From the NCBI GenBank assembly GCA_026122225.1, contig JANEZZ010001952.1:310001-374000 (forward strand): a DNA stretch of 64,000 bases, in the 5' to 3' direction. Positions 4,062 to 63,688 of the stretch are shown piece after piece. The notes beneath the pieces were generated by a model, which was given only the letters and a program-made list of their open reading frames with translations, made no database searches and was not told where the DNA came from. The position numbers were made by a program, and so were the translations under genes. The stretch comes from Heloderma charlesbogerti (Eukaryota > Chordata > Lepidosauria > Squamata > Helodermatidae). Each line of letters starts with the position of its first letter. Position 1 is the stretch's first letter.

Positions 4062-4966
4062 TAGGGATGGCGGAGAATTTCTCCCCGAAACTTCGGGGGG
4101 CCGAGCGCCAACGCGTTCGGCCCCCCAAACAAGTTTCGGTGAGAAATCCTCCGCCCCCCCGCCCCCCGCCCCCCGCCCCCCCCCGGGATGGGACTTACCT
4201 TCCCTGAATGTCCCTCCCGGAGGCGGGTCTGGCTGGCGGTTCGTCCGGTGTTCGAGCGGGGCGAGAGCGGCAGCCGGTCTTTCGACCGGCTGCCGCCCCC
4301 GCCATTGCAATCAAAGAAAAAAAAAAAAACACGTCCCCTGATAGGCTACGTGACGATTCACGTAGCCTATCATGGCTAGATTTGCCAAGTCAGCCGTGAT
4401 AGGCTACGTGAATCGTCACGTAGCCTATCCCGGGTGACTTAAAAAAAAAAAAAAAGTGTGTACGGATAATGGCGGCCCCCATAGGGAGCCGCCATTCCCA
4501 TTCCTTATTTGGTGGCTGTCGTCTACGTAAACGTTTACGTAGACGACAGCCACTAAATAAGGAACGCGAATGGTGGCTCCCTATGGGGGCCGCCATTATC
4601 CGTACACACTTTTTTTTTTTTTTTTTAAAGTCACCCGTGATAGGCTACGTGACGATTCACGTAGCCTATCACGGCTGACTTTGCAGATCTAGCCGTGATC
4701 GGCTACGTGAATCGTCACGTAGCCTATCAGGGGGCTTTTTTTTTTTTTTTTTACTTCCACGTTCACGGCCGGGTGAGGCGGGAAGCCTCCTCCCCGGCCT
4801 GAATTTCGGCCGGGCGAGGCGGGAAGCCTCCCCCCCGGCCTGAATTTCGGCCGGGCGAGGCGGGAAGCCTCCCCCCCGGCCTGAACTTCACGGGGGGACC
4901 AGCGAAGCGCTCCCCCCCACCGCGAACGGCATTCGACGACAGGTAAGCGACTTTCGTCCACCCCTA
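4062..4966 (+). mobile_element. foldback hAT (B left, A right) inside BovB
   Basis: Termini TAGGGATG and CACCCCTA; perfect 8-bp target duplication CTCTTTGG (4054-4061, 4967-4974). Left: B-end stem-loop (about 4070-4150, AGAATTTCTCC paired with GGTGAGAAAT), then an outward donor-like site on the minus strand (4198). Centre: a palindrome of about 390 bp (4339-4729) containing smaller palindromes, with centre near 4534 (ACGTAAACGTTTACGT). Right: GC-rich repeats (GGGAAGCCTCC three times, 4780-4880), then CAG|GTAAGC at 4943 and the A terminus. No transposase. hAT membership is inferred from the 8-bp duplication and TAGGG ends. Confidence 0.88.
4199..4305 (-). other. exon-like ATG open stretch ending at a donor-like site
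   Basis: Starting at the ATG at 4305 on the minus strand, 107 nt stay open (35 codons plus 2 nt) up to AG|GTAAGTCC. The predicted peptide starts MAGAAAGRKTGCRSRPARTP and ends GRDIQG. The same length, start and phase are found at 27228-27334 and 61740-61846, with a 6-nt longer version at 21529-21641. No downstream acceptor or second exon can be identified. It may be a captured first exon, a remnant of the autonomous parent's first exon, or chance openness of CpG-rich DNA. Confidence 0.4.
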
Positions 4967-7228
4967 CTCTTTGGCATTGCCCTTCTTTGGAATTGGAATG
5001 TAAACTGACCTTTTCCAGTCTTGCGGCCATTGTTGAGTGTTCCAAATTTGTTGGCATATTGAATGCAGCACTTTAACAGCATCATCTTTTAGGATTTTAA
5101 ATAGCTCAACTGGAAGACTGTCATCTCCGCTAGCTTTGTTGTTAGTAATGCTTCCTAAGGCCCACTTGACTTCACTCTCGAGGATGTCCAGCTCAAGTTC
5201 AGTGACCGCACTATCATGGCTATCAGGGACATTAAGATCTTTCCTGTATAGTTCTTCTGTGTATTCTTTCCACCTCTTCTTAATCTCATCTGCTTCTGTT
5301 AGGTCCCTGCCTTCTTTGTCCTTTATCATGCTCGTCTTTGCACAAAACGTTCCCTTGAGATCTCCAATTTTCTTGAAGAGATCTCTAGTCTTTCCCATTC
5401 TGTTGTTTTCCTCGATTTCTTTGCATTGTTCATTTAAGAAGGCCTTCTTGTCTCTCCTTGCTATTCTCTGGAACTCTGCATTCAGTTGGATATATCTTCC
5501 CCTTTCTCCCTTGCTTTTCGCTTCCCTTCTTTCCTCAGCTACTTGTAAAGCCTCATCAGACAGCTGCTTTGCTTTCTTGCATTTCTTTTTCTTTGGGATG
5601 GATTTCGTTGCTGCCTCCTGAACAACGTTATGGACCTCTGTCCATAGTTCCTCAGGCTCTCTGTCTGTCAGGTCTAATCCCTGAAATCTATTCCTCACCT
5701 CCACTGTATATTCATAAGGGATATGATTTAGGTCATACCTGAATGGTTTAGTGGTTTTCCCTACTTTCTTCAATTTAAGCTGAAATTTTGCAACAAGAAG
5801 CTTATGATCTGAGCCACAGTCAGCTCCAGGTCTTGTTTTGACTGACTGTATGGAGCTTCTCCATCTTTGGCTGCAAAGGACATAATCAATCTGATTTCGA
5901 TATTGACCATCTGGTGATGTCCATGTGTAGATTCGTCTCTTGTGCTGTTGGAAAAGAGTGTTTGCTATGATCAGCGTGTTCTCTTGGCAAAACTCTATTA
6001 GCTTTTGTCCTGCTTCATTTTGTACACCAAGGCCATGCCTGCCTGTTATCCCAGTGATTTCTTGACTTCCTACTTTAGCATTCCAATCCCCTATGATGAA
6101 AAGGACATCTTTTTTTGGTGTTAGTTCTAGTAGGTGTTGTAGGTCTTCATAGAACCGATCAACCTCAGCTTCTTCGGTATCAGTGGTTGGGGCATAGACT
6201 TGAATTACTGTGATGTTGAATGGTTTGCCTTGGATTCGTACTGAGATCATTCTATCATTTTTAAGATTGTATCCCAGTACTGCTTTTCCCACCCTTTTGT
6301 TGACCATGAGTGCTACTCCATTTCTTCTAAGGGATTCTTGCCCACAATAGTAGATATGATGGTCACCTGAATTAAATTCGCCCATGCCTGTCCATTGTAG
6401 TTCACTGATTCCCAAGATGTCGATGTTCAATCTTGCCATCTCATGTTTGACCACCTCCAGCTTACCTTGATTCATTGATCTGACATTCCAGGTTCCTAAA
6501 CAATATTGTTCTTTACAGCATCGGATTTTCTTTTCACCACCAGACACATCCACAGCTGAGTGTCCTTTCGGCTTTGGCCCAGCTGCTTCACTCTTTCTGG
6601 CACTACTTGGAAATACCCTCTGCTCTTCCCCAGTAGTATATTGGACACCTTCCGACCTGAGGGGCTCATCTTCTAGCGTCATCTCTTTTAGCCTTGTGAT
6701 ACGTTCCATGGGGTTTTCTTGGCAAGAATACTGGAGTGGGTTGCCATTTCCTTCTCCAGTGGACCACATTTTGTCAGAACTCTCTGCCATGACCTGTCTG
6801 TCTTGGGTGGCCCTGCACGGCATAGCTTATGGCTTCACTGAGTTACGCAAGCCCCTTCGCCACAACAAGGCAGTGATCCATGAAGGGGATTTACACATAT
6901 AATGTTGCCTAAATGACCCCTTTATGGCTACCATTTTTGCAACATTACATTTACAGAAAACCCTGAGCTAGGGATGTTAAAGAATTCCGCCATGGACTCC
7001 AGTGAGGCCGGATTCTTTAGAATCCTATCACAAAAAGAGCAGGGATGCAAATGGCATAGCGGGCACCATTTGTGTCCCTGCTCTTTGTCATGATAGGCTA
7101 CTTAAATATATATGCAGTCTATCATGCTAACACAGGGATGCAAATGGCGGCCGCTATGGCAGTCGCCATTTGCGGCCGCAGCCCGGCAGCGGATGAAGGT
7201 CCAGCTGTGGGTGGCCCTGGCCGGTGGC

Positions 7229-8259
7229 TAGGGATGTACAAAATTGGCCTTACCTGGCTCTGCCAGGTTCTGCTGGGGGGGGGAGGCACTCCATCCCTCC
7301 CCCTGGAATCCTGGCTGGCCGGCTGTGCTCCACGGGGATTCTGCGGAGCCGCTGGCTGGCTCTGCCAGCAGCCGGACATCCGGCCGCTGGCTAGTAGGGA
7401 TGTACGAAAATCACTTACCTTTCATGGATTATGTTGATGGTGGGGGGGAGGCGTTCCGTCCCTCCCCCCGGAATCCTGGATGGGGGGGAGGTGCTCTGTT
7501 CCTCCCTCCCGGAATCCTCCGCTGCCGACTGTGCTCCGTGGCAGCTCCGCGGAGCAGCCGGCCAGGCCCAGCCAGGCCAGAGCCGTCCAAAGCCGGATTT
7601 CCGGCCGCGGAGGGCTCTGGGAAAAAAAACACAAAAAACCGTGTACGCAAATGGCGGTGGCTACGGCCACCACCATTTGCGTTCCTTATTTTGACGTCTT
7701 AATCTACGTAAATATTTACATAGACTAAGATGGTGAAAATAAGGGGAACACAAATAGCGTAGCGGACGTTAATTGCGTTCCTCCTTATTTTGGCCATCTT
7801 AGTCTACATAAATATTTACATAGACTAAGATGGGCAAAAATAAGGAATGCAAATGGCGGCGGCCATAGCCGCCGGCACCGCCATTTGTGTATGCGCGTTT
7901 TTTTTTTTTTTTAAGTCAGACGTGATAGGCTACGTAAAGATTTATGTAGCCTATCATGTCGGGGTTTTTTTTAGTTTTTTTTAACCTAGCCATGATAGGC
8001 TACGTAAGTCTTTACATAGCCTATCACTTTTTTTTTTTAACTCTGGAAATGGCGGCGGCGGTGGCTGGTCGGAAGACTGGCCGCTGCCAGAGCCGGAGCC
8101 ACCGCCGCCCGGAAGATCCACCCCAGGTAAGTCTCGTCCCAGGGGGGATCCGCAGGGGGATGGGGGGGTGGCAGGCCATTCCACTACAGAGTTTGGGGGG
8201 CTGAATGCACTGGCGTTCGGCCTCACCGAGATCCGTCGCAGAATTCTCTGCCTTCCCTA
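7229..8259 (-). mobile_element. foldback hAT, inner element, with a duplicated A end
   Basis: Perfect 8-bp duplication CCGGTGGC (7221-7228, 8260-8267). Left terminus TAGGGATGTACAAAATTGGC; right terminus TTCCCTA after a B-end GAATTCTCTGCC. A second complete A terminus (TAGGGATGTACGAAAATCAC) lies inside at 7397 with no matching far end, so the A end is present twice in tandem. Palindromes: ATGGCGG.../...CCGCCAT types (7640-7680, 7850-7890) and TAGTCTACGTAAATATTTAC-type (7700-7830), then GATAGGCTACGT-type pairs (7922-8030). Confidence 0.88.
8049..8126 (+). other. exon-like ATG stretch, 26 codons, ends CCAG|GTAAGT
   Basis: ATG at 8049 opens exactly 26 codons (MAAAVAGRKTGRCQSRSHRR then PEDPPQ) before CCCCAG|GTAAGTCTCG at 8127, a phase-0 donor-like site pointing out of the B end. 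A shorter in-frame relative (MAAEDPPQ, 12354-12377) lies in the element at 11771-12507 with the same donor context and phase. Same caveats as the 107-nt versions; this is a second subtype. Confidence 0.35.
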
Positions 8260-8387
8260 CCGGTGGCTCTGCAGACTCACCATGGAGCAGACCCAGCCGG
8301 GGAGGATTCCGGGGGGAGGAATGGATCGCCTCATCCCCACCATGGATGGCCCCACCCAGAACAAGGTAAGGGATTCGTACATCCCTA

Positions 8388-9596: not shown

Positions 9597-9599
9597 AGC

Positions 9600-9692: not shown

Positions 9693-10315
9693 AAGGGGTG
9701 TACAAACCCCAGTCACTGTTCCGTTCCGGGGCATCCACAGTGGGGGGAAGGTGATCTGTCCCTCCCCCTGGAATCCTCCCTGGCCGGCTCTGCTCTGCGG
9801 CAACTCTGCAGAGCCGCTGGCTGGGCCTGTCCGCAGCTGGACTTCTGTCCACTGCCGGTCTGCGGCTACATAAATATTTACGTAGCCTATCACAGAAAAG
9901 AGCAGGGATGCAAATGGCGTCCACTACACCATTTACATCTCTGCTTTAGCTCTGATAGGCTATGTAAATATTTACGTAGCCTATCATGAAAAGAGTAGCT
10001 ATGCAAATGGCATAGCGGACGCCATTTGCGTCCCTGCTCTTTGCTGTGATAGGCTACGTAAATATTTACATAGCTTATCATGGCTAAAGCAGGGACGCAA
10101 ATGGCGTCTGCTACTCCGGATGCGATTTGCAGCCGCAGACTGGGGCTGCGGATGGCAACGGACGGACTGGACCAACAGGTGGCAGGTAGGGTCCGTCTGG
10201 GGAGAATTTTGCTGGGTGACAGAGGGGAGTGGTCCATTCCTCCACGGACTCCAGGGGTGGGATTCTAAAGAATCTGGCCTCATTGGAGTCTGTGGTGGAA
10301 TTCTCCGCCATCCCT
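9693..10315 (-). mobile_element. foldback hAT (A left, B right), no clear target duplication
   Basis: Left terminus is decayed (AAGGGGTGTACAAACCCCAGTC). Right terminus is GAATTCTCCGCCATCCCTA, with the GGATTCTAAAGAATC subtype block just inside. Interior: four GATAGGCTACGTAAATATTT-type palindromes separated by GCAAATGGCGTNNGCTACGC-type palindromes (9870-10110). Flanks AACAACAA and GCTGTATG do not match, perhaps because the BovB fragment landed at or recombined with this edge. GGCAG|GTAGGGTCC near 10185 is a weakened donor-like site. Confidence 0.75.
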
Positions 10316-10351
10316 AGCTGTATGTCATCTACCTAGAGAACTTCTATTTTC

Positions 10352-10917
10352 TAGGGGTGTCAGAGAATTTCTCGCCTAAACTTCGGGGGGCCGAGTGCTG
10401 ACGTATTCGGCCCCCCGAAGTAGTTTCGGGGAGAAATTTGCGTTGGGCTATTTGTGTTGCCCTTATTTTCGCCGTAGTCTACGTAAATCTTTACGTAGAC
10501 TACAGGGACCAAATAAGGAACGCGAATGGCGGTTCCCTATGGGGGCCGCCATTTGCGTACGTGCTTTTTTTTTATGTCACCCGTGATAGGCTACGTGATG
10601 ATTTACGTAGCCTATCATGGCTGACTTTGCAGATCTAGCCGTGATAGGCTACGTAAATCATTACGTAGCCTATCACGGGGCGTTTTTTTTTTTTTACTTT
10701 TCTGTTGAAGTTCGCAGCCGGGGAGATGGGGCGCTTCTCCCTGGACTGAATTTCGGCCGGGGGTGAGGCGGGAAGCCTCCCCCTTGGCCTGAATTTCCGC
10801 CTGGCAAGGCGGGAAGACACCCCCCGCTCGCATGTACTTCGGGGGGAGAAGCGAAGCGCCTCCCCCCCACCGCGAAAAAAGCTGCGGGACAAGGTAAGTC
10901 CCTTTCGTACATCCCTA
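10352..10917 (+). mobile_element. foldback hAT (B left, A right)
   Basis: Perfect 8-bp duplication CTATTTTC (10344-10351, 10918-10925). The left B-end stem-loop (GAGAATTTCTCGCC...TTTCGGGGAGAAATT) is directly followed by the palindrome array, so the donor-proximal part of the B end is deleted. The array has ATTTCGCCGTAGTCTACG type at about 10470-10505, GCGGTTCCC/GGGGGCCGCC at 10525-10555, and paired GATAGGCTACGT palindromes at 10583-10680. The right A end has AAG|GTAAGTCCC at 10894 and CATCCCTA. Confidence 0.88.
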
Positions 10918-11639: not shown

Positions 11640-12545
11640 ATGAGCCACTGGACAGTCCGATGCCAGCACCAGACGGCTGATTAATGCAGCCCAACCTATC
11701 ACACAGAGTTGTTGTGAGAATAAAATGGAGAGTAGCAGGACCAGGCATATCACCTTGGGCTCCTTGAAGGTAGGGATGTACGAAATGTACTTACCTTTCC
11801 ACGGATTATGTTTATGGTGGGGGGGGAGGCGTTCCGTCCCTCCCCCCGGAATCCTCGATGGGGGGGAGGTGCTCCGTTCCTCCCCCCCGGAATCCTCGAT
11901 GGCCAGCTGTGCTCCATGGTGGCTCTGTGGAGCAGCTGGCCAGGCCCTGGCCAAAGCTGTCTGCAGCTGGATTTCTGGCCGCAGAGGGCTCTGAGTAAAA
12001 AACAACAACCGCGTACGCAAATGGCGGCGGCTACGGCCGCCGCCATTTGCATTCCTTATTTTTGGCCATCTTAGTCTAGGTAAATATTTACGGAGACTAT
12101 GACGGCGAAAATAAAGGGGAATGCAAATAGCGCCTGCTACACTATTTGTGTTCCCCTTATTTTTGCCGTCTTAGTCTACGTAAATATTTACGTAGACTAA
12201 GAAACCAAAAATAAGGAACGCAAATGGCGGCGGCCATAGCTGCTGCCATTTGTGTACGCGGTTGTTGTTGTTTTTTACCCAGCCATGATAGGCTACGTAA
12301 ATCTTTACGTAGCCTATCACGTCTTGGAAAAAAAAAACCCCACAAGTCTGCAAATGGCGGCGGAAGATCCGCCCCAGGTAAGTCTCGTCCTGGGGGGGAT
12401 CTGCGGGGGGGTGAGGGGGCAGGCCGTTCCGCCACAGATTTCGGGGGGCCGAATGCACTGGCATTCGGCCTCACTGAGATCCATGGTGGAATTTTCTGCC
12501 ATCCCTACTTGAAGGAAAGACAGGATACAAATGTAATGAATGAAT
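11640..12545 (+). mobile_element. tRNA-type SINE 3' half, split by a foldback hAT
   Basis: ACAGAGTTGTTGTGAGAATA then AAATGGAG to TCCTTGAAGG, resuming after 12507 as CTTGAAGGAAAGACAGGATA then CAAATGTAATGAATGAATAA. The SINE tail is continuous once the insert and one copy of CTTGAAGG are removed. Confidence 0.65.
11771..12507 (-). mobile_element. foldback hAT (A left, B right) inside a SINE
   Basis: Perfect 8-bp duplication CTTGAAGG (11763-11770, 12508-12515). The left A end has a minus-strand donor-like site (GGAAAG|GTAAGTA). GC-rich blocks GGAATCCTCGATGG occur twice. Palindromes: GCGGCGGCTACGGCCGCCGC (12022-12050), TAGTCTACGTAAATATTTAC-type (12070-12100, 12170-12205), a GCAAATAGCG type between them, GCGGCGGCCATAGC type (12224-12250), and one GATAGGCTACGT palindrome (12286-12322). 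The right B end has CCAG|GTAAGTCTCG at 12378, then GGGGGGCCGAATGCACTGGC and CATCCCTA. Confidence 0.88.
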
Positions 12546-19554: not shown

Positions 19555-20340
19555 TCAAGGTAGGGTCCCCAAAGGCATCTGGTGGCCCACACTTTGAAAC
19601 AAGATGCTGAACTAGATTGCTTGATCCAGCTAGGGGTGTACGAAAGTCACTTACCTTTTCGCAGGTGTGATTCACTGTAGGGGGGAAGCGCTCCGTCCCT
19701 CCCCCCAGAATCCTCCCTGGCTGGCTCTGCTCCTCAGTGGCTCTGTGGAGCCACCAGCCAGGGCCATCCACAGCCAGAGTTCCAGCTGTGGCCAGGCTGC
19801 TGTGGATGCAAATGGCGGCCGCTGTAGCGGCCGCCATTGCATCCTGCCAGGCTGCTGTGATAGGCCACGTAAGTATTTATGTAGCCTATCATGGCAAAGA
19901 GCAGGAACGCAAACGGCGGCTGCTACGCCGTTTGCGCCGCTGCTCTTTTCGTGATAGGCTATGTAAGTATTTACGTAGCCTATCATGGTAAAGGCAGCCA
20001 TGCAAATGGCACAGTGGCCACCATTTGCGTGGCTGCCTTTACCGTGATAGGCTATGTAAATACTTACGTAGCCTATCATGGCAGCCTGGCAGGATGCAAA
20101 TGGTGGCTGCTACGGCGGCCGCCATTTGCGTCTGCAGCAGCCCAGCCGAAAGACCAGCTGCCGCTGCTGGAGCTGCTGCTGCCCCAGGTACGTTTTGTTC
20201 CGTGGGGATTCCGTGGGGTGGGGGGGGAGGCCGTTCCACCATGGGTTTTGGGGGGTGCATTCGGCCTCACTGAAAATCCGTGGCAGAATTCTCCACCATC
20301 CCTAGATCCAGCAGGGTTCATCTTATGTTCTTACATGCAA
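19555..20340 (+). mobile_element. LINE 3' tail split by a foldback hAT
   Basis: AGATGCTGAACTAGATTGCT then TGATCCAGC, resuming after the insert as AGGGTTCATCTTATGTTCTT. This is the ...GGACCCTTGGTCTGATCCAGC...CTTATGTTCTTA tail also seen at about 31720 and 50090. Only the last roughly 100 bp of the LINE is visible. Confidence 0.6.
19631..20304 (-). mobile_element. foldback hAT (A left, B right) inside a LINE tail
   Basis: Perfect 8-bp duplication GATCCAGC (19623-19630, 20305-20312). Left A end TAGGGGTGTACGAAAGTCAC with donor-like AAAAG|GTAAGTG on minus. Palindrome array 19805-20130: ATGGCGGCCGCTGTAGCGGC type, GATAGGCCACGTAAGTATTT type, GCAAACGGCGGCTGCTACGC type, then the same again in inverted order around a GGCAGCCATGCAAATGGCAC centre. 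Right B end begins GCCCCAG|GTACGTTTTG near 20187 and ends CACCATCCCTA. Confidence 0.88.
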
Positions 20341-21104: not shown

Positions 21105-21750
21105 TAGGGATGTACGAAAGTCACTTACCTTTTCGCAGGGGTGCTTCACGGTGGGGGGGAGGCGCTTCGCTTCTCCCCCCGAAGTTCAGGCAAGCGGGGG
21201 AGGCGTCCCGCCTTGCCCGGCTGAAATTCAGGCCGGGGAGAAGCGCCCCGTCTCCCCGGCCGCGAAACAAAAAGTAAAAAACCCCAACAACAACCGTGAT
21301 ACGATTAACGTAATGATTAACGTAGCCTATCACGGCTAGATTTCCAAAGTCAGCCATGATAGGCTACGTAAATCGTTATGTAGCCTATCACGGGTGACTT
21401 TGAAAAAAAAAAAAGCGCGTACGCAAATGGCGGCGCCCTATGGGTTTGGAAATCTAGCCGTGATAGGCTACATTAATTGTTACGTAGCCTATCATGGGGT
21501 TGTTGTTTTTTTTACACTTTACTTTGTAATGGCGGCGGCGGCGGCGGCAGCCGGTCGGAAGACCAGCTACCGCCCCCGCCCCCGACAAAAGGCCGACGAA
21601 CCGCCGCCGGGACCCGCTGCCAGGAGGGACATTCGCCAAAGGTAAGTACCATCCCGGGGGGGCGGAGAATTTCACCGCCGATTTCGGGGGGCCGAATGTG
21701 TTGGCACGCGGCCCCCCGAAGATTCGGGGAGAAATTCTCCTCCATCCCTA
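21105..21750 (-). mobile_element. foldback hAT (A left, B right) inside CR1
   Basis: Left flank CTATTAGA (21097-21104). Right flank is CT--TAGA with 2 nt missing, so this is an 8-bp duplication with a later deletion; the CR1 text (GACTNTTAGAGCA) supports this. A end with donor-like AAAAG|GTAAGTG on minus; GATAGGCTACGT-type palindromes at 21296-21335, 21357-21392 and 21460-21495. The ATGGCGGCG palindrome is only half present at 21427-21440, so the central array is collapsed. B-end stem-loop 21660-21740 ends CATCCCTA. Confidence 0.85.
21529..21641 (+). other. exon-like ATG stretch of 113 nt ending AAAG|GTAAGT
   Basis: ATG at 21529 then 37 open codons plus 2 nt to AAAG|GTAAGTACC. Peptide begins with M and seven alanines then GRKTSYRPRPRQ, and ends ARRDIRQ. 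Relative to the 107-nt versions it has 6 extra nt in the alanine run, so frame and phase 2 are kept. The best-preserved long copy of the B-end exon-like module. Confidence 0.42.
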
Positions 21751-21929: not shown

Positions 21930-23035
21930 TCCAGCATTCTTTTCCCACAGTGGCCAACTGGATGCCTACTGGGAGCTAGGGATGGCAGAGAATTCCGCCA
22001 CGGATTCCAGTGAGGCCGGATTCTGTAGAATCCGGCCTCCCGGAATCCATAGCAGAACGGCCTCCTGCCCCCCCCAGAATTCCCCAGGATGGCACTTACC
22101 TGGGGCAGATGTGGTGGATTCGGTGGCAGCAGGTGCGGCGCGTGCGGCGATGGGTGCTACAGGGCGGTGGCTGCAGCGGCGGCGGCTGGTCTCCTGACCA
22201 GCCGCAGCCGAGCACAGCATACACAAATGGCAGCGGCTACAGCGGCCACTATTTGCTTTCGCTATTTTTCGCCGTTCTGACCTACGTAAATATTTACGTA
22301 GGCAATTACGGCGAGAAAAAAAGGAACTGCAAATAGCGCCCACTACACTATTTGCAGTTCCCTTTTTTTTTCCCGCCGTAATTGCCTACATAAATATTTA
22401 CGTAGGCTAGTACGGCAAAAAATAGCGAACGCAAATGGCGGCTGCCGTAGCCGCCGCCATTTGCGTACGCTGGTTTTTTTGCGGGGGGGGGTTAGCCGTG
22501 ATAGGCTACATAAATTCTTACATAGCCTATCACGGTTGCCTGGCTGGATGCAAATGGCGGCCGCTATGGCAGCCGCCATTTGCGTCCGCACCAGCCCGTC
22601 CGCGGCTGGAAATCCAGCTGCGGACGGCCCTGGCCGGCTGCTCTGTGGCCTGGCCACGGAGCAGAGCTGGCCATCAAAGATTCCGGGGGGAAGACCGGAT
22701 TGACTCCCCCATCAAGGATTCTGGGGGGGAGGGACGGAGAGCCTCCACCCCGCAGTGGATGCCCCGACCAGAACAGGTAAGTGATTCGTACATCCCTACC
22801 GGGAGCTCACAAGCAGGAGGACATGAGCACCTTCCTGTTCATGTTCTCTAGCAACTGGTATTCAGAGGCAGAATTCTGGGATAGATGTTCAGGGCCCCAG
22901 TCATACTGCCTCCGATTCTGGAGGTAATATATACCCATCATGACTACTAGCCATTGATAGCCTCATCCTCCATGAATCTGTCTAATTCCATTTTAAATCT
23001 ATCCAGGTGGGTGGCCATCACTATCTGGCCATTGC
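21930..23035 (-). mobile_element. LINE 3' UTR (same family as 31446-31720), split by a foldback hAT
   Basis: On the minus strand: AATGGCTAGTAGTCATGATG then GGTATATATTACCTCC, AGAACATGAACAGGAAGG, and after the insert CAGTTGGCCACTGTGGG then AAAAGAATGCTGGACAT. Matches in order the plus-strand copy at 31446-31720 and the shorter one at 49865-50098. It is a LINE tail (CR1/L2-like); the exact clade is not determinable from the tail alone. Confidence 0.6.
21977..22798 (+). mobile_element. foldback hAT (B left, A right) inside a LINE tail
   Basis: Flanks CTGGGAGC (21969-21976) and CCGGGAGC (22799-22806), 7/8. The left B end has the GGATTCTGTAGAATCC subtype, with CCCCAG|GTAAGTGCCATCC pointing out on minus near 22098. 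Array 22220-22600: GGCAGCGGCTACAGCGGCCA type, GACCTACGTAAATATTTACG type (22280-22312), GCAAATAGCGCC...CTATTTGC (22330-22352), a second TACGTAAATA type (22383-22412), GCGGCTGCCGTAGCCGCC (22435-22462) and GATAGGCTACAT (22499-22535). Right A end: CAG|GTAAGTG at 22777. Confidence 0.87.
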
Positions 23036-24197: not shown

Positions 24198-24601
24198 TAG
24201 GGATGCTGGAGAAATTCAAGATGGATAAAAATGAGCTCGGATTCCTAAGAATCCGACCTGCGGAATCTGCTGCGGAGTGATCCCCTGAGGTCTCACAGAG
24301 TCCGTGGACTTTCAGGTGATTTTTTTACTTTCCCAAAATTTACGCTTATACATCCGTACAATAATACATACGTTTCTGCCGAGGAAGCATTGAATGGAAT
24401 GGGAGACAATTCACTAAATGTTACATACTGAGGTAAATTATGGAAATACTTAGGTAAATATTTATGTAATTATTTGCGCATTTTTCCACATGACAGAAAA
24501 AAAATATTTGCATCTATCTGTGGGCAGACAATGGAACAAAAGGTGCCTGACAATCTGCAAAATACAGACGGGGCAGATTCTACACTGTCCATACATCCCT
24601 A
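24198..24601. mobile_element. hAT-like MITE, family 3, copy 1
   Basis: TAGGGATGCTGGAGAAATTC to ACTGTCCATACATCCCTA; perfect 8-bp duplication CCTCCACA (24190-24197, 24602-24609). 404 bp. The reverse-oriented copies at 41874-42262 and 59956-60370 match throughout (GGATTTCTAAGGATCTGACC type block, AAAAATATTTGCATC, TAAGTATTTACATAA). Non-autonomous. Confidence 0.82.
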
Positions 24602-26586: not shown

Positions 26587-27467
26587 TAGGGGTGGACGAA
26601 AGTCACTTACCTGTCCTCGAAGCTTGTTTGAGGTGGGGGGGAGGCGAAGTTCAGGCCGGGGGGGGAGGCTTCCCGCCTCACCCGGCCGAAATTCAGGCCG
26701 GGGGGGAGGCTTCCCGCCTTGCCCGGCCGAAATTCAGGCCGGGGAGGAGGCGCCTCACCTCGCCCGGCCGCGAACTCCAAGTTTTTTTTAAAAAAAACAA
26801 ACGCCCCCGTGATAGGCCACGTGACGATTAACGTAGCCTATCACGGCTAGATCTGCAAAGTCAGCCATGATAGGCTACGTTAATCGTCACGTAGCCTATC
26901 ACGGGTGACTTAAAAAAAAAAAAAGCGCGTACGCTAATGGCGGCCCCCATAGGGAGCCTCCATTCGCGTTCCTTATTTGGTCTCTGTAGTCTACGTAAAT
27001 CTTTACGTGGACTACAGCGACCAAATAAGGAACGGGAATGGCGGCTCCCTATGGGGGCCGCCATTAGCCGTACGTGCTTTTTTTTTTTTAAAGCCACCTG
27101 TGATAGGCTACGTGACGATTTACGTAGCCTATCACGGCTGAGTTTGCAAATCTAGCCATGATAGGCTACGTTAATTGTCACGTAGCCTATCACGGGGGCG
27201 TTTTTGTTTTTCTTTTCTTTTCTTGGAATGGCAGTGGCTGCAGCCGGTCGAAAGACCGGCTGCCGCTCCCGCCCCGCACGAACACCCACCGAACCGCTGG
27301 CCGGACCCGCCGCCGGGAGGGACATTCGGCAAAGGTAAGTCCTGTCCCGGGGGGGATGCGGGGGGTGGGGGGGTGCGGAGAATTTCTCCCATAAACTTGT
27401 TCGGGGGGCCGAACACGTTGGCGCTCGGCCCCCCGAAGTTTCGGGGAGAAATTCTCCACCATCCCTA
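26587..27467 (-). mobile_element. foldback hAT (A left, B right), well preserved
   Basis: Perfect 8-bp duplication CACAAAAG (26579-26586, 27468-27475). A end with GGACAG|GTAAGTG on minus; three GGGAGGCTTCCCGCCT-like repeats. Central palindrome of about 390 bp: GATAGGCTACGT pairs at 26809-26905 and 27100-27198 flank ATGGCGGCCCCCATAGGGAG blocks, with the CTACGTAAATCTTTACGTGG centre near 27004. B end: exon-like stretch, AAAG|GTAAGTCCTGT at 27335, stem-loop 27378-27455 with CCATAAACTTGTTCGGGG, CATCCCTA. Same architecture as 4062-4966 in reverse. Confidence 0.9.
27228..27334 (+). other. exon-like ATG stretch of 107 nt ending AAAG|GTAAGT
   Basis: ATG at 27228, 35 open codons plus 2 nt. The peptide starts MAVAAAGRKTGCRSRPARTP and ends GRDIRQ. 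Same length and phase as 4199-4305. Between those two copies I count roughly as many amino-acid-changing as silent differences, so coding constraint is not demonstrated. Confidence 0.42.
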
Positions 27468-28472: not shown

Positions 28473-30163
28473 TAGGGATGTCAGAGAATTCCGCGATGGA
28501 TCTTGGCGAGGCTGAATGCCAGTGCATTCGGCACCTCAAAACCTAGGGATGTCAGAGAATTTCACCACGAATCTCGGGGAGGCCGAATGCCAGCGCATTT
28601 GGCCCCCCAAAATTGGTGGCGAAACAGACTGCCCCCCCCGCACCCCCCAGGATGGGACTTCCTTGTGCGAATCCTCCTGGAGGCGGCGGCTGCGGCGGTG
28701 GTTTGGCGGCGGCGGCTGGTCTTCCGACTGGCTGCCGCCACCGCCATTTCCAGTAAAAAAAAAAAAAAGTGATAGGCTACGTAAAGATTTACATAGCCTA
28801 TCACGGCTAGATTTTAAAAAAATACCGTGATAGGCTACGTAAATGTTTATGTAGCCTATCACGGCTGAGTAAAAAAAACACAAAAAACTGCACGTACGCA
28901 AATGGCGGCGCCCATGGGTGCCGCCATTTGCGTTCCTTATTTTGGCACGTCTAGTCTATGTAAACATTTACGTAGACTACGGCGAAAATAAGGGGAACAC
29001 AAATAGCGTAGATGCTACGCTATTTGTGTTCCCCTTATTTTCGCCGTAGTCTACGTAAATGTTTACATAGACTAGATGTGCCAAAATAAGGAACAGAAAT
29101 GGCGGCACCCATGGGCGCCGCCATTTGCGTACGCAAGGTTTTGGTTTTTTTACTCAGCCGTGATAGGCTGCGTAAACATTTAAGTAGCCTATCACGGCTG
29201 ACTGCAGGGATGCAAATGGCGGTGGCTACGGCCGCCGCCATTTGCGGCCCGGCCGGCCAGGATTCGGGGGTGGAGGGACGGAGCACCTCCCCCCCGGCCA
29301 GGATTCGGGAGCGAGGGATGGAGCGCCTCCCCCCCGGCCAGAATTTCGGGGGGGAGGGATGGAGCGCCTCCTCCCCACCGCGAATCAAATTTCGTTCAAG
29401 GTAAGTGACTTTCTTACATCCATATCGAAACCCATCGTGGAACGAAGTCCCCGCCACCCACCCCACAAAAGGCACACGGGACGAAGTCCCTGCTGCCCCC
29501 ACCCCACGAAAGGTGCATGAAATGCAACACCTACCTACTCCCATCTGCGCTGCTGTGTGAATGGTGGGTGTCCTACAGCCACCATTCGCATCTTCCTCTT
29601 CAGCCGTGATGGGCTACGTAAATACTTAATACATAAATGCCATTTGCATCCCTGCGGAGGCCGTGATAGGCTACGTAAGTATTTATGTAGCCTATCACGG
29701 AGGGGGGGGGGAAACCCGAGCGTATGCAAATGGTGGTAGCTGCCGCCATTTGCGTACACTGGGGTTGTTTTCCACCTGCCGTGATAGGCTACATAAGTAT
29801 TTACGTAGCCTATCACGGCGGGGGGGGGGAAACCCGAGCGTACACAAATGGCAGCGGCTACCACCATTTGTGTATGCTCAGGTTCCCCCCCCCGCCGTGA
29901 TAGGCTATGTAAATTTTTACGTAGCCTATCACGGCGAAAGAAAGGGATGCAAATGACAGCGGCTACGACAGCCGCCATTTGCATCCCTGCAGGGCTGCCC
30001 AGCGGATAGGTGTCCGGCTGTGGGCGGCCAGAGCTGGCTGGCAGCTCCACGGCTTGTCCGCGGAGTGGAGCCAGCCGGCCAGGATTCCGGGGGGAGGGAC
30101 AGAGCACCTCCCCCCCCAGCGGAACCCAGTGGAGCCAGGTAAGCGGGGTTTCGTACACCCCTA
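28473..30163 (+). mobile_element. foldback hAT, outer element of a nest
   Basis: Left B end TAGGGATGTCAGAGAATTCC followed after 71 bp by the insertion of a second element (28544-29424). The B end then resumes as CGTGGAACGAAGTCCCCGCC, closely like 44930-45020. Array 29560-29985: GATAGGCTACGTAAGTATTT palindromes at 29666-29700, 29781-29818 and 29897-29934, separated by ATGGTGGTAGCTGCCGCCAT-type units with CCCGAGCGTA and its complement in mirror order. Right A end: GCCAG|GTAAGCGGGG at 30139, then ACCCCTA. Flanks AACAAAAT and AAAATGTG do not match. Confidence 0.78.
28544..29424 (+). mobile_element. foldback hAT, inner element
   Basis: Flanks TCAAAACC (28536-28543) and TCGAAACC (29425-29432), 7/8, lying within the outer element's B end. 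Left TAGGGATGTCAGAGAATTTC; right TTCAAG|GTAAGTGACTTTCT then ACATCCATA (decayed CATCCCTA). The array is symmetrical about 29008: GATAGGCTACGTAAAGATTT (28768-28802), GATAGGCTACGTAAATGTTT (28830-28864), ATGGCGGCGCCCATGGGTGC (28902-28928), CTATGTAAACATTTACGTAG (28955-28976), GCAAATAGCGTAGATGCTACG centre (29000-29025), then mirror units to 29192. Confidence 0.87.
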
Positions 30164-35589: not shown

Positions 35590-36959
35590 TAGGGATGTAC
35601 GAAAGTTCCGCCATGGATCTCGGGGAGGCTGAATGCCAGTGCATTCGGCCCACCGAAATCGGTGGTGGAACGGCCCGCCCCCTCACTCCCCCCAGGACGG
35701 GACTTACCTTGGGCGGATCTTTCTGGTGGCGGCGGCTCCAGCGGCGGCTCCGGCGGCGGTTCGGTGGCAGTTTGGCTGCCGCCGCTGCCATTATCAGGTA
35801 AAAAACCCCCCCAAAACAAAAAAAGTGATAGGCTACATAACGATTTACGTAGCCTATCACAGCTAGATTTTAAAAAAACACCATGATGGGTGTCAGGATG
35901 GACACTGAGCCCATAGAATCCCAGAGTAGTTCTGATTCTGAGGAAGAGCAGTCGCTCCTGGGAGGGGAGCGCGCTCCTCTTTCCCAGGGCCAACAGCTGA
36001 CGGAGATTCCTCCCACCAACATTCCTAGCTTAGATAGCAGTCCAGGGAGTAACAGAGAGTGGATAGCAGACTTGGTGGATGCGTGACGCAGACGCAGAGA
36101 GCGGCACCAGATGGAGGGCGCAGAAAGGAGGCGTAGTGCCCGGTTGGCGCGCAAACAACGGCTGTGCCCAGAGGATCCAAGGGAAAAGGGGAGGGACTCT
36201 CCCTAGTCCTTAAGTTCAGGGGTCTGCCAGTAATTCCCTTTCAAACAGGGACCAACTGTTCCAACTTAGGGCATAGGTACTGTGCTGCTCAGATCTAGTT
36301 GCAAACAGTATAGTTGTTAAGTTGTAAAAGAAGAATAAGGCTTTGAAAGGAATCCCTTTGTCTGTGTCTGGACTTGGCTACTGGATTAGACTGAGAGAGG
36401 CCTCCAAGGAGCCCTTGACAATAGGCTACGTAAATGTTTACATAGCCTATCACGGCTGACTTTAAAAACAAAACAAAAAACGCGTGTACGCAAATGGCGG
36501 TGGCCATGGCTGCCACCATTTGCATTCCTTATTTTGGCACATCTTAGTCTACATAAACATTTATGTAGACTAAGACGGCGAAAATAAGGGGAATGCAAAT
36601 AGCGTAGCTATGGCCGCCGCCATTTGCATACGCACTTTTTTTTTTTTTAAATCAGCCGTGATAGGCTACGTAAACATTTACGTAGCCTATCACGGCTGAC
36701 TGCAGGGACGCAAATGGCGGCAGCTGTGGCCGCCATTTGCATCTCTGCTACCCAGCGGCCAGATGTCCGGCTGCTGGCGAAGCCGGCCGGCAGCTCCGCA
36801 GAATCACTGAGGAGCATAGCCGGCCGGCCAGGATGCCGGGGGGGGGGGAGGAATGGAGCGCCTCCTCCCCTGGTGAGGATTCCAGGGGGAGGGATGGAAC
36901 GCCTCCCCCCCCGCCATCAGCATAATCCCTGAAAGGTAAGTGATTTTCGTACATCCCTA
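35590..36959 (+). mobile_element. foldback hAT inside Ngaro, with hybrid left terminus
   Basis: Flanks CGTGGACC (35582-35589) and CGGGGACC (36960-36967), 7/8. The left end reads TAGGGATGTACGAAAG (A-end text) directly joined to TTCCGCCATGGATCTCGGGG (B-end text), so the terminus is a recombinant. Then minus-strand AAG|GTAAGTCCCG near 35706 and an exon-like MAAAAAKLPPNRRRSRR frame (opens near 35791). First palindrome 35825-35860; the second is split by the LTR at 35891-36420. The array resumes to 36740 with TAGTCTACATAAACATTTAT (36545-36572). Right A end: AAAG|GTAAGTG at 36936. Confidence 0.87.
35891..36420 (+). mobile_element. solo LTR, family L1 copy 2 (530 bp)
   Basis: TGTCAGGATGGACACTGAGC ... 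GGAGCCCTTGACA, identical in length and nearly so in sequence to 1946-2475. Inserted into a foldback palindrome: ATGGG before and ATAGG after form a 5-bp duplication with one substitution, and removing it restores CATGATAGGCTACGTAAATG. A polyadenylation-like AATAAGG (copy 1: AATAAAG) lies near 36340. Youngest layer of the three-level nest. Confidence 0.88.
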
Positions 36960-41873: not shown

Positions 41874-42262
41874 TAGGGATGTACAGACTGTGTAAAATCC
41901 TCTCTGTCTGTGTTTTGCGGATTGTCAGGTGCCTTTCGTTCCATCATCCATCCACAGACGGATGCGGATATTTTTTTTTCGTCATGCAGAAAAATACAGA
42001 AATAATTACATAAGTATTTACATAATTTGCCCCAGTACGTAACATTTAGTGTATTGTCCCCTGTTCCATTCTACGTTTCCTTAGCAGAAACTGATGTATT
42101 TTTCTACAGATTTATATGCGTAATTTTAGGAAAGTAAAAAAATCATCTGAAAGTCCACAGACTGCAGGGCCTGCAAGGGTTGCTCCACAGCAGATTCCTC
42201 AGGTCAGATCCTTAGAAATCCGAGCTCATTTTAATCCATCTTGAATTTCTCCAGCATCCCTA
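41874..42262. mobile_element. hAT-like MITE, family 3, copy 2
   Basis: TAGGGATGTACAGACTGTGT to TCTCCAGCATCCCTA; perfect 8-bp duplication ATTTTGGC (41866-41873, 42263-42270). 389 bp, reverse orientation relative to 24198-24601. Its first 12 bp match the A end of the foldback family. Confidence 0.83.
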
Positions 42263-44388: not shown

Positions 44389-45674
44389 TGTCAAGAATGC
44401 CCCTGTTGCCTTCTGAATCCTCCAATAGACAGAATCAACACTCAGATAAAAGGGCTGCTTTCCAAGGCTTTAATTCCATTCAGCCTAATGAAGCTTACAG
44501 ATGCTAATTGCCTGAGACTCAGGGAAATACAAAGGAACAGCCTAGTAGGGGTTTCTAAGAGTTAGGACATCAGTAGGTCCCCGTTTGGGGAAAAGCACGG
44601 CAACTCTCTGAACTTAAGGAGTAGGAGGGGGAAGTCTCCCCCTCTCCCATGGGGCCTCGGGGCGCAGCTGTTGACGTTGAGCCAATCGGGCTGAGCACCT
44701 AAGCTCAGCTCCCGCAACCTCTCGCTTGTGCCTGCACCTGCGCCTCACGTCTAAAAGCTCAAGTTGTCCCTCCCTTTCCATGAAGGGTCACTGTCACTCT
44801 CAGGCATGTGAGCGGGGGTGGGGGGCTCCCCCTCCAGCTGCGTCTCTGAAATCTGAGAGAGTTCCTCTCTAGGGATGTCAGAGAATTCCGCAACGGATCT
44901 CGGTGAGGCCGAATGCCAGTGCATTCGGCCCCCCCAAATCCATTGCGGAACAAAGCCCCCGCCCCCCAACCCATGAAAGGTGCACGGGACCAAGTCCCCG
45001 CCACTCCCACCCCACAAAAGGCACATGAAATGGAGCACTTACCTGCTCCCGTCCATGCTGCTTTGCGAATGGCGGCCGTCCTGTGGCCGCCATTCACTTC
45101 CTCCTCTCAATAGCTGTGGTAGGCTACGTAAATACTTACATAGCCTATCAGAGCTAATGCAGGGACGCCATTTGCTTCCCTGCAGAGGCCTTGATAGTAT
45201 GTAGCCTTTCATGGTGGGTGGGTTACCCAGCGTACGCAAATGGCGGCGGCTACCGCCATTTGCGTATGCTGGGGTTTTTCCCCTGCTGTGATAGGCTACG
45301 TAAATATTTACACAGCCTATCATGGCTCAATACAGGGACGAAAATGGTGGTGGCTACGACAGCCGCCATTTGCATCCCTGCAGGGCTGCCCAACGGCCAG
45401 ATGTCTGGCTGTGGGCGGCCGGAGCCGGCCGGCAGCTCTGCGGCTTGGCGATGGAGCGGAGCCGGCCGGGCAGGATTCCGGGGGGAGGGACGGAGCACCT
45501 CCACCCCATCAAGGATTCCAGGGGGAGGGACGGAGCGCCTCCCCCCACCACGGATGCCCCTGTGCGGAGCCAGGTAAGGGATTTGTACATCCCTATTCCT
45601 CTCCCACGGATTGTATCTCCTCCTCAGAAACAGAGCTGCTTTGGGACTCTATGGGCTCAGATCCAACCCTGACA
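44389..45674 (-). mobile_element. solo LTR, family L1 copy 3, split by a foldback hAT
   Basis: Plus-strand edges TGTCAAGAATGCC and CCAACCCTGACA. Reversed, it starts TGTCAGGGTTGGATCTGAGC then CCATAGAGTCCCA, clearly the start of the L1 LTR family. Flanks GTGCC (44384-44388) and CTGCC (45675-45679), 4/5. Removing the foldback (44868-45595 plus one TTCCTCTC) leaves about 550 bp. The LTR-edge acidic frame is kept (GSEPIESQSSS ... EEELSQISETQLEGEPP ... SDSDPSWKGRDNLSF). More diverged than copies 1 and 2. Confidence 0.8.
44868..45595 (+). mobile_element. foldback hAT (B left, A right) inside an LTR
   Basis: Perfect 8-bp duplication TTCCTCTC (44860-44867, 45596-45603). B end TAGGGATGTCAGAGAATTCC with GCATTCGGCCCCCCCAAATC stem, then GGGAGCAG|GTAAGTGCTCC on minus near 45040. 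Array: GAATGGCGGCCGTCCTGTGG, GTAGGCTACGTAAATACTTA (45118-45152), a partly deleted palindrome near 45190, GCGTACGCAAATGGCGGCGG with its mirror (45230-45268), GATAGGCTACGTAAATATTT (45290-45323), and GGTGGTGGCTACGACAGCCG. A end: GCCAG|GTAAGGG at 45574. Confidence 0.89.
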
Positions 45675-45679
45675 CTGCC

Positions 45680-57701: not shown

Positions 57702-58442
57702 TAGGGATGTCAGAGAATTTCTCCACAAACCTCAGGGAGGCCGAATGCCAGCGCATTCGCCCCCCCGAAATTGGTGGAGAAACGGTCTGCCCCCCCCGCC
57801 CCCCCCCGGGACGGGACTTACCTTGTTTGAATGTCCCTGGCGGCAGTGGAGGCGGTTCGGCAGCAGTTCGGCGGCGGCAGCGGCCGGTCTTCCGACCGGC
57901 TGCCGCCACTGCCATTTCCAAGTAAAACAAACAAACAAACAAACAAACAAACAAACGTGATAGGCTACGTAAAGATTTACGTAGCCTATCACAGCTAGAT
58001 TTTAAAAAAACACCGTGATAGGCTACGTAAATGTTTACGTAGCCTATCACGGCTGACTTTGGAAAAACAAAAAAAAGTGCGTACGCCCATGGGCGCTGCC
58101 ATTTGTGTTCCTTATTTTGGCACGTGTTTTTTTTTTTCCGATTCCCAGTGGCTTTTTTTTTTTTTTAAAGTCAGCTGTGATAGGCTACGTAAACATTTAC
58201 GTAGCCTACCACGGCTGACTGCAGGGATGCAAACGGCGGCGGCTATGGCCGCCGCCATTTGCATCCCGGCAGGAGAGGTTTCGCAGCTGGAGGGATGGGG
58301 CACCTCCCCCCCGGCCAAAATTTCGGGGGGGAGGGATGGGGCGCCTCCCCCCCGGCCAGAATTTCAGGGGGAGGGATGGAGCGCCTCCCCCTCACTGCGA
58401 AGCAAGCTTCGGGATCAGGTAAGGGACTTTTGTCCATCCCTA
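57702..58442 (+). mobile_element. foldback hAT (B left, A right) inside a family-2 hAT
   Basis: Perfect 8-bp duplication CTTACGAG (57694-57701, 58443-58450). B end TAGGGATGTCAGAGAATTTC with the GCCGAATGCCAGCGCATTCG stem, CAAG|GTAAGTCCCG on minus near 57821. Palindromes GATAGGCTACGTAAAGATTT (57958-57992) and GATAGGCTACGTAAATGTTT (58017-58050). The middle is truncated (GCGTACGCCCATGGGCGC then CTTATTTTGGCACGTG, no mirror). One more GATAGGCTACGTAAACATTT (58178-58212), then ACGGCGGCGGCTATGGCCGC. A end: CAG|GTAAGGG at 58419 preceded by three GGGAGGGATGG(G/A)GCGCCTCC repeats. Confidence 0.88.
57822..57915 (-). other. exon-like ATG stretch of 94 nt ending CAAG|GTAAGT
   Basis: ATG at 57915 (minus) then 31 open codons plus 1 nt to ACAAG|GTAAGTCCCG. 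Peptide starts MAVAAAGRKTGRCRRRTAAE and ends PPGTFKQ. Start and donor context match the 107-nt versions but the length differs by 13 nt, so the frame at the end changes (GTF instead of RDI). This argues against strict coding conservation. Confidence 0.35.
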
Positions 58443-61412: not shown

Positions 61413-61979
61413 TAGGGGTGCATGAAAGTCACTTACCTGGTCTCGCAGCTTTTCGCGGTGGGGGGGGAGGCGCTTCGCTGCTCCCCCCGCGAAGTTCAGG
61501 CCGGGGGGGGAGGCTTCCTGCCTCGCCCGGCCGAAATTCAGGCCGGGGAGGAGGCGCCTCGCCTCGCCCGGCCGCGAAATAAAAAGTTTTTTTTAAAAAA
61601 AAACAACGCCCCCGTGATAGGCTATGTGACGATTAACGTAGCCTATCACAGCTAGATCTGCAAAGTCAGCCATGATAGGCTACGTAAATCATCACGTAGA
61701 CTATCACGGGGGTGTGTGTTTTTTTTTAGTTTTATTGGAATGGCGGCGGCGGCAGCCGGTCGAAAGATCGGCTGCTGCCCCCGCCCCTGACGAAGACCCG
61801 ACGAACCGCCGCCGGGACCCGCCGCCAGGAGGGACATTCGGGAAAGGTAAGTCCCGTCCTGGGGGGGGTGTGGGGTGCGGGGGGGTGCGGAGAATTTCTC
61901 CCCAAAACTTGTTCGGGGGGCCGAACACATTGGCGCTCGGCCCCCCGAAGTTTCGGGAAGAAATTCTCCGCCACCCCTA
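61413..61979 (-). mobile_element. foldback hAT (A left, B right)
   Basis: Flanks ATGATGAC (61405-61412) and ATGATAAC (61980-61987), 7/8. A end TAGGGGTGCATGAAAGTCAC with GACCAG|GTAAGTG on minus. Only two GATAGGCTA(T/C)GT palindromes are left (61614-61648, 61672-61707); the central array is deleted. Exon-like stretch 61740-61846, AAAG|GTAAGTCCCG at 61847, and a long B stem-loop (about 61888-61970) ending CACCCCTA. Confidence 0.88.
61740..61846 (+). other. exon-like stretch of 107 nt with an internal stop
   Basis: Same length, ATG position and donor as 4199-4305 and 27228-27334. Codon 17 is TGA where a related copy has CGA, a typical CpG decay change. Peptide otherwise MAAAAAGRKIGCCPRP, stop, then RRPDEPPPGPAARRDIRE. 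Confidence 0.4.
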
Positions 61980-61984
61980 ATGAT

Positions 61985-62195: not shown

Positions 62196-62812
62196 GAAGA
62201 AGGATTTGAAAGAGCCAAAGTCCCCGTGCAAGAGTGAAGCTTCTGTGGAAGCAGGTGGAGGGTGGCTTTGACCACTTCTCTCAATCAGCATACTTTGTTT
62301 TTGGTTCATTAGGTAGAATGTGGGAAGACCCACTCAGCTCTCCCTTGTTTTAAGAATGCATTTCCATGGTAAAGGACAGGCTGGGGCAGGTGACTCATTA
62401 CCTCATTCATTCTCTTTAGCTGACTGCCTGGGGGCTGGGGATATAATTGAATGTCTACTGACTATGGTCAGTCAGACATTCATTCACATGCTTGGCTGTG
62501 GAAAGGGCAGGGGGGAAGGAGACTTATTTAGGTATGCTGCAGTGTCTGAATGGAAGATGTGCCTTTCCCTCTTCTATTCCTACCAAGCAATATCTCTGCC
62601 TGAGGTACACAACTGTACACAACTGCAGTCCCTTTTGGTTTCCCCATTCTGCAATTAGCATATATGCAGGCTGCGTTATGGCTATGGTATTGCTTGTCAT
62701 CTCATGTGTTCAAGTAGCATGCCCCCCCCACATGCACACTCTCCATTGTGTAGTGTATTCCTCATGCAAACACAGAGGAATTGCCCCTTGTAAAAATACA
62801 GCTAGTTGGAAG
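62196..62812. other. unassigned
   Basis: Nothing recognised in about 600 bp. Confidence 0.35.
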
Positions 62813-63688
62813 TAGGGATATCAGAGAATTTCTCCACGAATCTCCGGGAGGCCAAATGCCAATGCATTCGGCCCCCCAAAATTGGTGGAGAAACGGTCTG
62901 CCACCCCCCCGGGATGGGACTTACCTTGGTCAAATGTCCCTGGCAGCAGCAGCTCCCAGCGGCGGTTCAGCGGCAGTTCGACGCCGCGGCCATTTCCAAG
63001 TGTAAAACAACAACAACAACAACAAACGTGATAGGCTATGTAAAGATTTACGTAGCCTATCACGGCTAGATTGTAAAAAACATCGTGATAGGCTACATAA
63101 ATGTTTGCGTAGCCTATCACAGCTGACTTTGGGGGAAAAAAAAGCGCGTACGCAAATGGTGGCGCCTATGGGCACTGCCATTTGTGTTCCTTATTTGGGT
63201 AAACATTTACGTAGACTACGGCGAAAATAAGGGCAACGCAAATAGCATTGCCCTTATTTTCGCCGTAGTCTGTGTAAATGTCTATGTAGACTACACGTGC
63301 CCAAATAAGGAAGGCAAATGGCGGCGCCCATGGGTGCTGCCATCTGCGTATGTGCTTCCCCCCCCCCAAAGTCAGCCGTGATAGGCTACGTAAACATTTA
63401 CATAGCCTATCACGGCTGACTGCACGGATGCAAACGGCAGCGGCTATGGCCGCCGCCATTTGCGTCCCAGCAGGAGAAGAGGTTTCGCGGCCGGAGGGAT
63501 GGGGTGCCTTCCCCCCGGCCAGAATTTCGGCCGGAGGGACTGGGCGCCTCCCCGCCAGCCAGAATTTCGGTAGGGAGGGATGGGGCGCCTCCCCCCCTGC
63601 CAAGAATTTTGGGGGGGAGTAACGGAGTGCCTCCCCCCCACCGCGAAGCAAGCTGAGGGACCAGGTAAGGGACTTTCGTCCATCCCTA
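62813..63688 (+). mobile_element. foldback hAT (B left, A right), well preserved
   Basis: Perfect 8-bp duplication GTTGGAAG (62805-62812, 63689-63696). B end TAGGGATATCAGAGAATTTC with the ...CAATGCATTCGGCC stem and ACCAAG|GTAAGTCCCATCC on minus near 62923. Array: GATAGGCTATGTAAAGATTT (63029-63063), GATAGGCTACATAAATGTTT (63085-63119), ATGGTGGCGCCTATGGGCAC, GTAAACATTTACGTAGACTA (63199-63220), GCAAATAGCATTGC centre (about 63245), mirror TAGTCTGTGTAAATGTCTAT, ATGGCGGCGCCCATGGGTGC, GATAGGCTACGTAAACATTT (63379-63413), ACGGCAGCGGCTATGGCCGC. A end: CAG|GTAAGGGACTTTC at 63665. Confidence 0.9.

Follow-up and report, generated by a model that had tools for sequence, protein, structure and literature searches.

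The 64,000-nucleotide (nt) stretch of Heloderma charlesbogerti analyzed here (assembly GCA_026122225.1, contig JANEZZ010001952.1, positions 310,001 to 374,000 of the forward strand; hereafter the window) harbors a dense family of short transposable elements whose interiors are mosaics of palindromes. Judged from their sequence, these elements are likely non-autonomous riders of a 9.4-kilobase (kb) hAT transposon residing in the same genome.

Short elements and target duplications

Tips of the TAGGGRTG/CAYCCCTA type were sought with at most one mismatch, paired with their inverse, and required to have 8-base-pair (bp) flanks matching with at most one mismatch. The window yields 20 such pairs: 14 mosaic elements, two simple cousins, and four others. 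When one flank is shifted by multiples of 9 bases, 0 or 1 pair remains per trial (12 trials). When flank lengths of 4 to 12 are tried, exact flanks measure 8 bp in 14 pairs and 5 bp once, and none of length 4, 6, 7, or 9–12 occurs among the paired tips of the window. Four of the 14 exact 8-bp pairs are non-mosaic (starts 18161, 24198, 41874, and 44340).

The original prediction listed seventeen elements with common ends, ten having perfect and five near-perfect 8-bp duplications. Tabulation over these seventeen starts gives ten exact duplications (8/8) and four with a single mismatch (7/8); the element at 21105–21750 has a 2-nt gap in one flank, likely through loss of 2 nt. No target duplication was found for 9693–10316 (flanks AACAACAA / GCTGTATG) or for 28473–30163, which is split by 28544–29424, and the element placed at 44868 is real but begins at 44870. 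With 28473 omitted, sixteen elements occupy 12,435 of the 64,000 bases (19.4%), in line with the predicted density of about one fifth. Two insertions are nested, 7229 inside 6969 and 28544 inside 28473, which indicates repeated rounds of activity.

The pairs 13280–14018, 13590–13938, 18161–18584, and 44340–46150 fit both tips and flanks and were put down as unrelated or accidental. Reading through the first shows no mosaic, 13590 and 18161 were judged on the outermost 34 bases at either end only, and the last merely surrounds the element at 44870.

Ends and palindromes of the short elements

The two ends of a short element are distinct sequences with little in common beyond the first 8 bases. 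The typical A-end starts TAGGGRTGTACGAAAGTCACTTACCT, and the typical B-end starts TAGGGATGTCAGAGAATTTCTCC and continues into a G+C-rich inverted repeat. Since the ends differ, the short elements are asymmetric and not classic foldbacks; the label "foldback" given to them earlier is misleading, because the inverted repeats inside them consist of numerous short palindromes. Long terminal inverted repeats of the classic foldback or Galileo-like kind are excluded, the ends of an element being alike at the tip only.

Between the ends lie palindromes of two kinds that have the core CTACGTAAATATTTACGTAG in common. Interiors built of palindromes had been predicted and are borne out: all sixteen mosaic elements contain 2–4 TGATAGG-type palindromes each plus other palindromes, and CAAATGGCGGC inverted pairs are present in 14 of the 16. 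Across the window and further genomic loci, 238 of 245 distinct palindromes have a 4-base gap between 15-base arms. Their arms differ at a mean of 1.87 positions, compared with 3.19 when arms are re-dealt (minimum of 500 re-deals, 2.91), and variants common to both arms number 201 against 64 expected. The coordinates of the elements are collected in Table 1.

Table 1. Palindrome-mosaic elements, their simple cousins, and the splice-site words of the reference copy in the window
Feature	Position	Strand	Evidence
Mosaic element, B-end left, A-end right	4062..4966		Exact 8-bp duplication CTCTTTGG
Mosaic element, split by 7229-8259	6969..8387		Exact duplication CCCTGAGC
Mosaic element nested in 6969-8387	7229..8259		Exact duplication CCGGTGGC
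Mosaic element, left tip degraded	9693..10316		Duplication not found
Mosaic element without B-side donor word	10352..10917		Exact duplication CTATTTTC
Mosaic element	11771..12507		Exact duplication CTTGAAGG
Mosaic element, B-side word AGGTACG	19631..20304		Exact duplication GATCCAGC
Mosaic element	21105..21750		Flanks CTATTAGA / CTTAGA, 2-nt gap
Mosaic element	21977..22798		Duplication, 1 mismatch
Simple cousin: related tips, no mosaic, one palindrome core	24198..24601		Exact duplication CCTCCACA
Mosaic element, reference copy	26587..27467		Exact duplication CACAAAAG
A-end outward putative 5′ splice-site word AGGTAAG, reference copy	26606..26612	-	Word match
B-end outward putative 5′ splice-site word AGGTAAG, reference copy	27333..27339	+	Word match
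Mosaic-type element split by 28544-29424	28473..30163		Duplication not found
Mosaic element nested in 28473-30163	28544..29424		Duplication, 1 mismatch
Mosaic element	35590..36959		Duplication, 1 mismatch
Simple cousin, opposite orientation, one palindrome core	41874..42262		Exact duplication ATTTTGGC
Mosaic element	44870..45595		Exact duplication TTCCTCTC
Mosaic element	57702..58442		Exact duplication CTTACGAG
Mosaic element	61413..61979		Duplication, 1 mismatch
Mosaic element	62813..63688		Exact duplication GTTGGAAG

The autonomous 9.4-kb hAT element

A search of the assembly of the same genome (2.30 gigabases) for the hAT dimerization domain gave 871 candidate places, of which the best 150 were scored, and several of these hold open frames of 879–908 amino acids (aa). 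One element, C235, spans 9,387 bp, with TAGGGATGTCAGAGAAATTC at its left boundary, an A-end with the tip CACCCCAA at its right, and CACAACAC on both sides. Of seven young autonomous copies examined, five have exact 8-bp duplications, the others besides C235 being C3039 (ACTGAAAT), C838 (AAAAAAAG), C216 (ATCCTTCC), and C2110 (TGCAAATG). The last of these (L070/L077) is inserted within another mosaic element, and the word it duplicates comes from a palindrome arm. C235, C1725, C216, C2110, and C2501 all carry the mosaic and an A-end at the right, the mosaic making up the last few hundred bases and varying in unit number; the right side of C838 and C3039 was inspected at the A-end tip only. Around position 2080 of the transposase loci, CATCCCTA resembles a right end but was rejected as one because the same sequence follows it in 24 of 30 loci, which marks it as internal.

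In a Pfam scan, the transposase matches PF05699 (E 1.3e-16) and zf-BED (E 6.8e-5), and hAT, BED, and a weak DUF659 match are the only hits. By word match, the 879-aa frame contains TSDTW, ATDNA, and ASERLF at 333, 405, and 803, which are candidates for the usual motif contexts of the catalytic D, D, and E of hAT transposases. Short terminal inverted repeats (TIRs) of the TAGGG type are the hAT form, and TAGGGRTG-type tips are found at both ends of the elements. A transposase-bearing partner with PF05699 and zf-BED, related ends, and 8-bp duplications thus secures the hAT membership advanced in the original prediction, and the autonomous transposase with ends of the same type that it proposed to look for is present in the genome.

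The five best protein relatives of the transposase are lizard gene models, 36–42% identical. By their Pfam numbers, three of the five carry what we presume to be SCAN domains and two KRAB domains; models P0001, P0003, and P0004 fuse SCAN or KRAB to related BED/hAT transposases, in the manner of host-transposase fusions.

Two convergent genes

The 9.4-kb element carries a second gene on the strand opposite to the transposase. Its product matches Myb_DNA-bind_4 (PF13837) with E 2.4e-9, over the cut-off of that family, and is a predicted DNA-binding factor of the Myb/SANT-like type. Pairing the best 150 of 871 transposase places with the best 150 of 716 second-gene places, a comparison in which unpaired places carry little information, gives at least 74 transposase/second-gene pairs no more than 8 kb apart. 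They are spaced 2.5–5.6 kb, every one is convergent, and none is on the same strand.

The ratio of nonsynonymous to synonymous substitution rates (dN/dS) between C235 and the old copies C2113 and C859 is 0.44 and 0.39, respectively, for the first exon of the second gene and 0.42 and 0.50 for the transposase, the old transposases being aligned over 601 and 636 columns. Over all young-versus-old comparisons, dN/dS ranges from 0.37 to 0.52 for the first exon of the second gene (nine rows) and from 0.41 to 0.50 for the transposase (six rows).

Probable expansion of a single palindrome into an array

The right ends of the old autonomous copies C2113 and C859 read CATCCCTA or TATCCCTA and have no mosaic. 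One core, TACGTAAATATTTACGTA, is nevertheless present with 2–3 mismatches of 18 in C2113, C859, and both simple cousins, a match equaled in 0 of 200 shuffles for each. C235 and C2113 align at 78.5% to a point 416 bp short of the right end of the young C235, and beyond this point the young end is mosaic. A single core in four mosaic-free relatives, as opposed to several palindromes per mosaic element, suggests that the array is an expansion of one ancestral site. To judge from these alignments, the young right end looks as though it was replaced and one ancestral palindrome site multiplied within it.

Palindromes as probable docking sites

On balance, we favor the reading that the short elements are riders of the two-gene hAT and that their palindromes are multiplied docking sites for its own proteins. 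In such a scheme, the transposase would cut at the tips and move the short elements, while the Myb/SANT-like protein, or the BED finger of the transposase, would bind the palindrome half-sites as a dimer. A larger number of docking sites would improve end recognition, and the short elements would then compete better and reach more copies. Both parts of this scheme have precedents. In Harbinger, a Myb-like protein is reported to interact with the transposase and to bind the TIRs, a precedent for a Myb-like partner of a transposase (PMC9179366). A study of Galileo, of the P superfamily, likewise reports multiple THAP-domain binding sites in repetitive ends, a precedent for repeated binding sites in such ends (PMC3688188).

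Several observations weigh against the docking of element-encoded proteins or the partnership itself. C2501, one of the seven young copies, has imperfect flanks, and the left end of another, C1725, was not findable. The autonomous left end gives no BLAST match to the window or to loci L001–L030, which leaves the B-end unexplained by the autonomous partner beyond the first two dozen bases. Protein searches with the second gene return no relative at E 0.001, and its dN/dS rests on approximately 75–78 synonymous sites only. Within lineages, dN/dS is 0.64–0.76 for the transposase and 0.34–0.53 for the second gene; higher values are expected of decaying copies, yet they weaken the estimate. As for the palindromes, the arm-to-arm covariation stems in part from the mixture of two palindrome kinds in the search, and the C in the central CpG shows 0 changes common to both arms against 5.9 expected. 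The old-type right end L040 has no palindrome core, as 190 of 200 shuffles match equally well.

CpG-rich ends and outward 5′ splice-site words

A two-protein hAT does not account for two further features, the CpG-rich ends and the outward splice-site words, both of which would fit a promoter-exon role. These two features, like the second gene and the difference between the two ends, did not figure in the original prediction. The CpG observed-to-expected (o/e) ratio of C235 reaches 1.07 over the leftmost 400 bp and 1.09–1.15 over the rightmost 587 bp, compared with 0.00–0.64 in 21 interior bins, and TpG/CpA is raised to 1.12–1.64 in the interior versus 0.67–0.81 at the ends. The right ends L069–L071 show CpG o/e of 1.00–1.11 in the first 400 bp versus 0.27–0.31 over the second gene and beyond. 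The left ends of other copies give 1.04–1.09 (three with 400 bp), and L077 gives 1.62 over only 239 bp. The short elements themselves range from 0.57 to 1.14, compared with 0.29 in the rest of the window. Escape of the ends from germline methylation, or selection on CpG there, is the likely cause.

The word AGGTAAG faces outward, in exact form, at 25 of the 30 A-ends not used for locus selection and at 37 of 48 B-ends, whereas five control words score 0 or 1 at the same ends. The 18 A-ends used in locus selection were counted apart, being 18/18 exact by construction. Eight of 56 element rows were dropped from the count: three unrelated window pairs, the two cousins, the overlapping chimeric rows L013_223 and L015_560, and the duplicate L056_492. 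A full-length partner is present for 35 of the 48 copies and absent for 13; the twenty best full-length partners among the matches listed are 78–92% alike.

Given the exact core, base −3 is C in 13 and A in 12 of the A-ends and A in 18, C in 16, and G in 3 of the B-ends, so that C or A occupies this position in 25/25 and 34/37. Base +6 is T in 17, G in 7, and C in 1 of the A-ends and T in 36 and C in 1 of the B-ends. Genome-wide, the 27-base A-end pattern occurs 12,032 times with C at −3, 20,460 times with A, and 352 times with G or T, and the reversed pattern 0 times each. Because the copies descend from source elements, these word and base counts are not independent. The base spectrum at −3 and +6 is that of a putative 5′ splice site, measured against what we take to be the consensus, and RNA started within an end could in principle be spliced into neighboring DNA.

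The leading rival, or companion, to the docking reading is that the mosaic is mainly a portable promoter. Each end would combine a CpG-rich promoter, unmethylated in the germline, with a first exon and a 5′ splice site facing outward, insertions would send spliced RNA into adjacent DNA, and the palindromes would bind host transcription factors. This proposal is possible, though we regard it as distinctly less probable. It would explain why AGGTAAG persists despite the divergence of the copies and why C or A prevails at −3 in the window set and across the genome, and it suits ends that resemble CpG islands. Motifs that we take to be CArG boxes are also concentrated inside the short elements (0.64 per kb, versus 0.12 outside). 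The dependence among copies counts against it, as the numbers could stem from a few source lineages. Moreover, exact outward AGGTAAG is absent from the first 1,700 bases of the autonomous left end, and the word does not occur within 200 bp of the tip in the two old autonomous right ends (C2113 and C859), in the L040 end, or in both cousins (for 24198..24601, at either tip).

AGGTAAG near the ends could alternatively be a contact word of the transposase or an accessory protein instead of a splice site. Its constant orientation toward each end and the short A-end distance (offset 17–23) would agree with this. We consider it unlikely, however, as the B-end distance from the tip ranges from 89 to 168, the alternation of C and A at −3 and the T at +6 (17/25 and 36/37) match a 5′ splice site, and the word is missing near the two old autonomous right ends and both cousins despite the same or near-same 8-bp tips.

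Two explanations concern the origin of the array. Hairpin-prone DNA might expand and homogenize via template switching, leaving palindromes as a functionless mutational by-product; unit number does vary even between autonomous copies with second genes 97% alike to the C235 gene, and template switching would also yield the excess of arm-common variants. The core kept in four mosaic-free relatives, the rigid palindrome spacing, and the CpG retained at the ends speak against such a by-product, which appears rather improbable. Least plausible is that the mosaic end was captured, first exon included, from a CpG-island promoter of the host and then spread, for although the CpG-rich content and the switch to mosaic in the alignment of young C235 with old C2113 would suit it, the palindrome core is already present in mosaic-free relatives.

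Docking and promoter functions may also have been combined. Tentatively, a hAT lineage might have recruited a Harbinger-style helper, after which its ends took on two roles, as palindrome arrays on which proteins dock and as unmethylated, portable promoter-exon cassettes with a 5′ splice site facing outward. One genome would thereby have been seeded with more than 32,000 A-ends bearing an exact, splice-ready word.

Relation to known systems

With BED-type, ZBED-like hAT elements, the family shares the PF05699 dimerization domain, the BED finger, the 8-bp duplication, and TAGGG-type tips. What sets it apart is the convergent Myb/SANT-like gene of the 9.4-kb element, together with the palindrome array and the outward splice-site words. 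The hAT superfamily is usually described with one protein, and a hAT with a convergent Myb/SANT-like gene would link it to the two-protein logic of Harbinger. PIF/Harbinger elements have a Harbinger-type transposase and a 3-bp duplication. The likeness to them lies in the pairing of a transposase with a Myb/SANT-like second gene (here PF13837, in at least 74 convergent pairs), but the present transposase is hAT by Pfam and its duplication is 8 bp.

Internally repetitive ends are common to Galileo/Foldback-like elements and to this family; the ends of Galileo are long inverted repeats, whereas the present elements have unlike ends and short palindromes as their repeats. In En/Spm (CACTA) and Ac/Ds, a protein of the element binds numerous short sites in subterminal arrays. 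A multitude of short sites close to the ends is a common trait, although En/Spm has other tips and belongs to another superfamily, and Ac relies on a single protein without palindromes. Among open-licence literature, no title matched a hAT with a Myb-type or second gene, a reptile foldback or palindromic hAT, or outward splice donors, though the family may still be described.

With a series running from one palindrome to an array, one can test whether multiplied docking sites are what lets non-autonomous elements prevail. Should the outward splice sites be in use, spliced RNAs could begin in tens of thousands of insertions within a single vertebrate genome, and the family would readily supply new promoters and first exons.

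Other features of the window

Rfam matches are 5S rRNA-like at 1205–1323 (-) and tRNA-like at 46175–46246 (-). ARAGORN finds no tRNA gene in the window, and the two matches are possibly heads of short interspersed nuclear elements. Long open frames lie at 53454–56600 (-), where a 1,048-aa frame is uninterrupted, and at 4964–6826 (-); both resemble what we take to be an RTE/BovB-type retroelement protein. The frames at 32560–35051 (-) resemble what we take to be a tyrosine-recombinase (DIRS-like) retroelement, and a 305-aa open frame at 51912–52829 (+) resembles what we assume to be a Tc1-type transposase. The segment 42503–43558 is repetitive, with GEKMQPTSQWRKDAAHLPVEKRCSPPPS-like units and long open frames on both strands.

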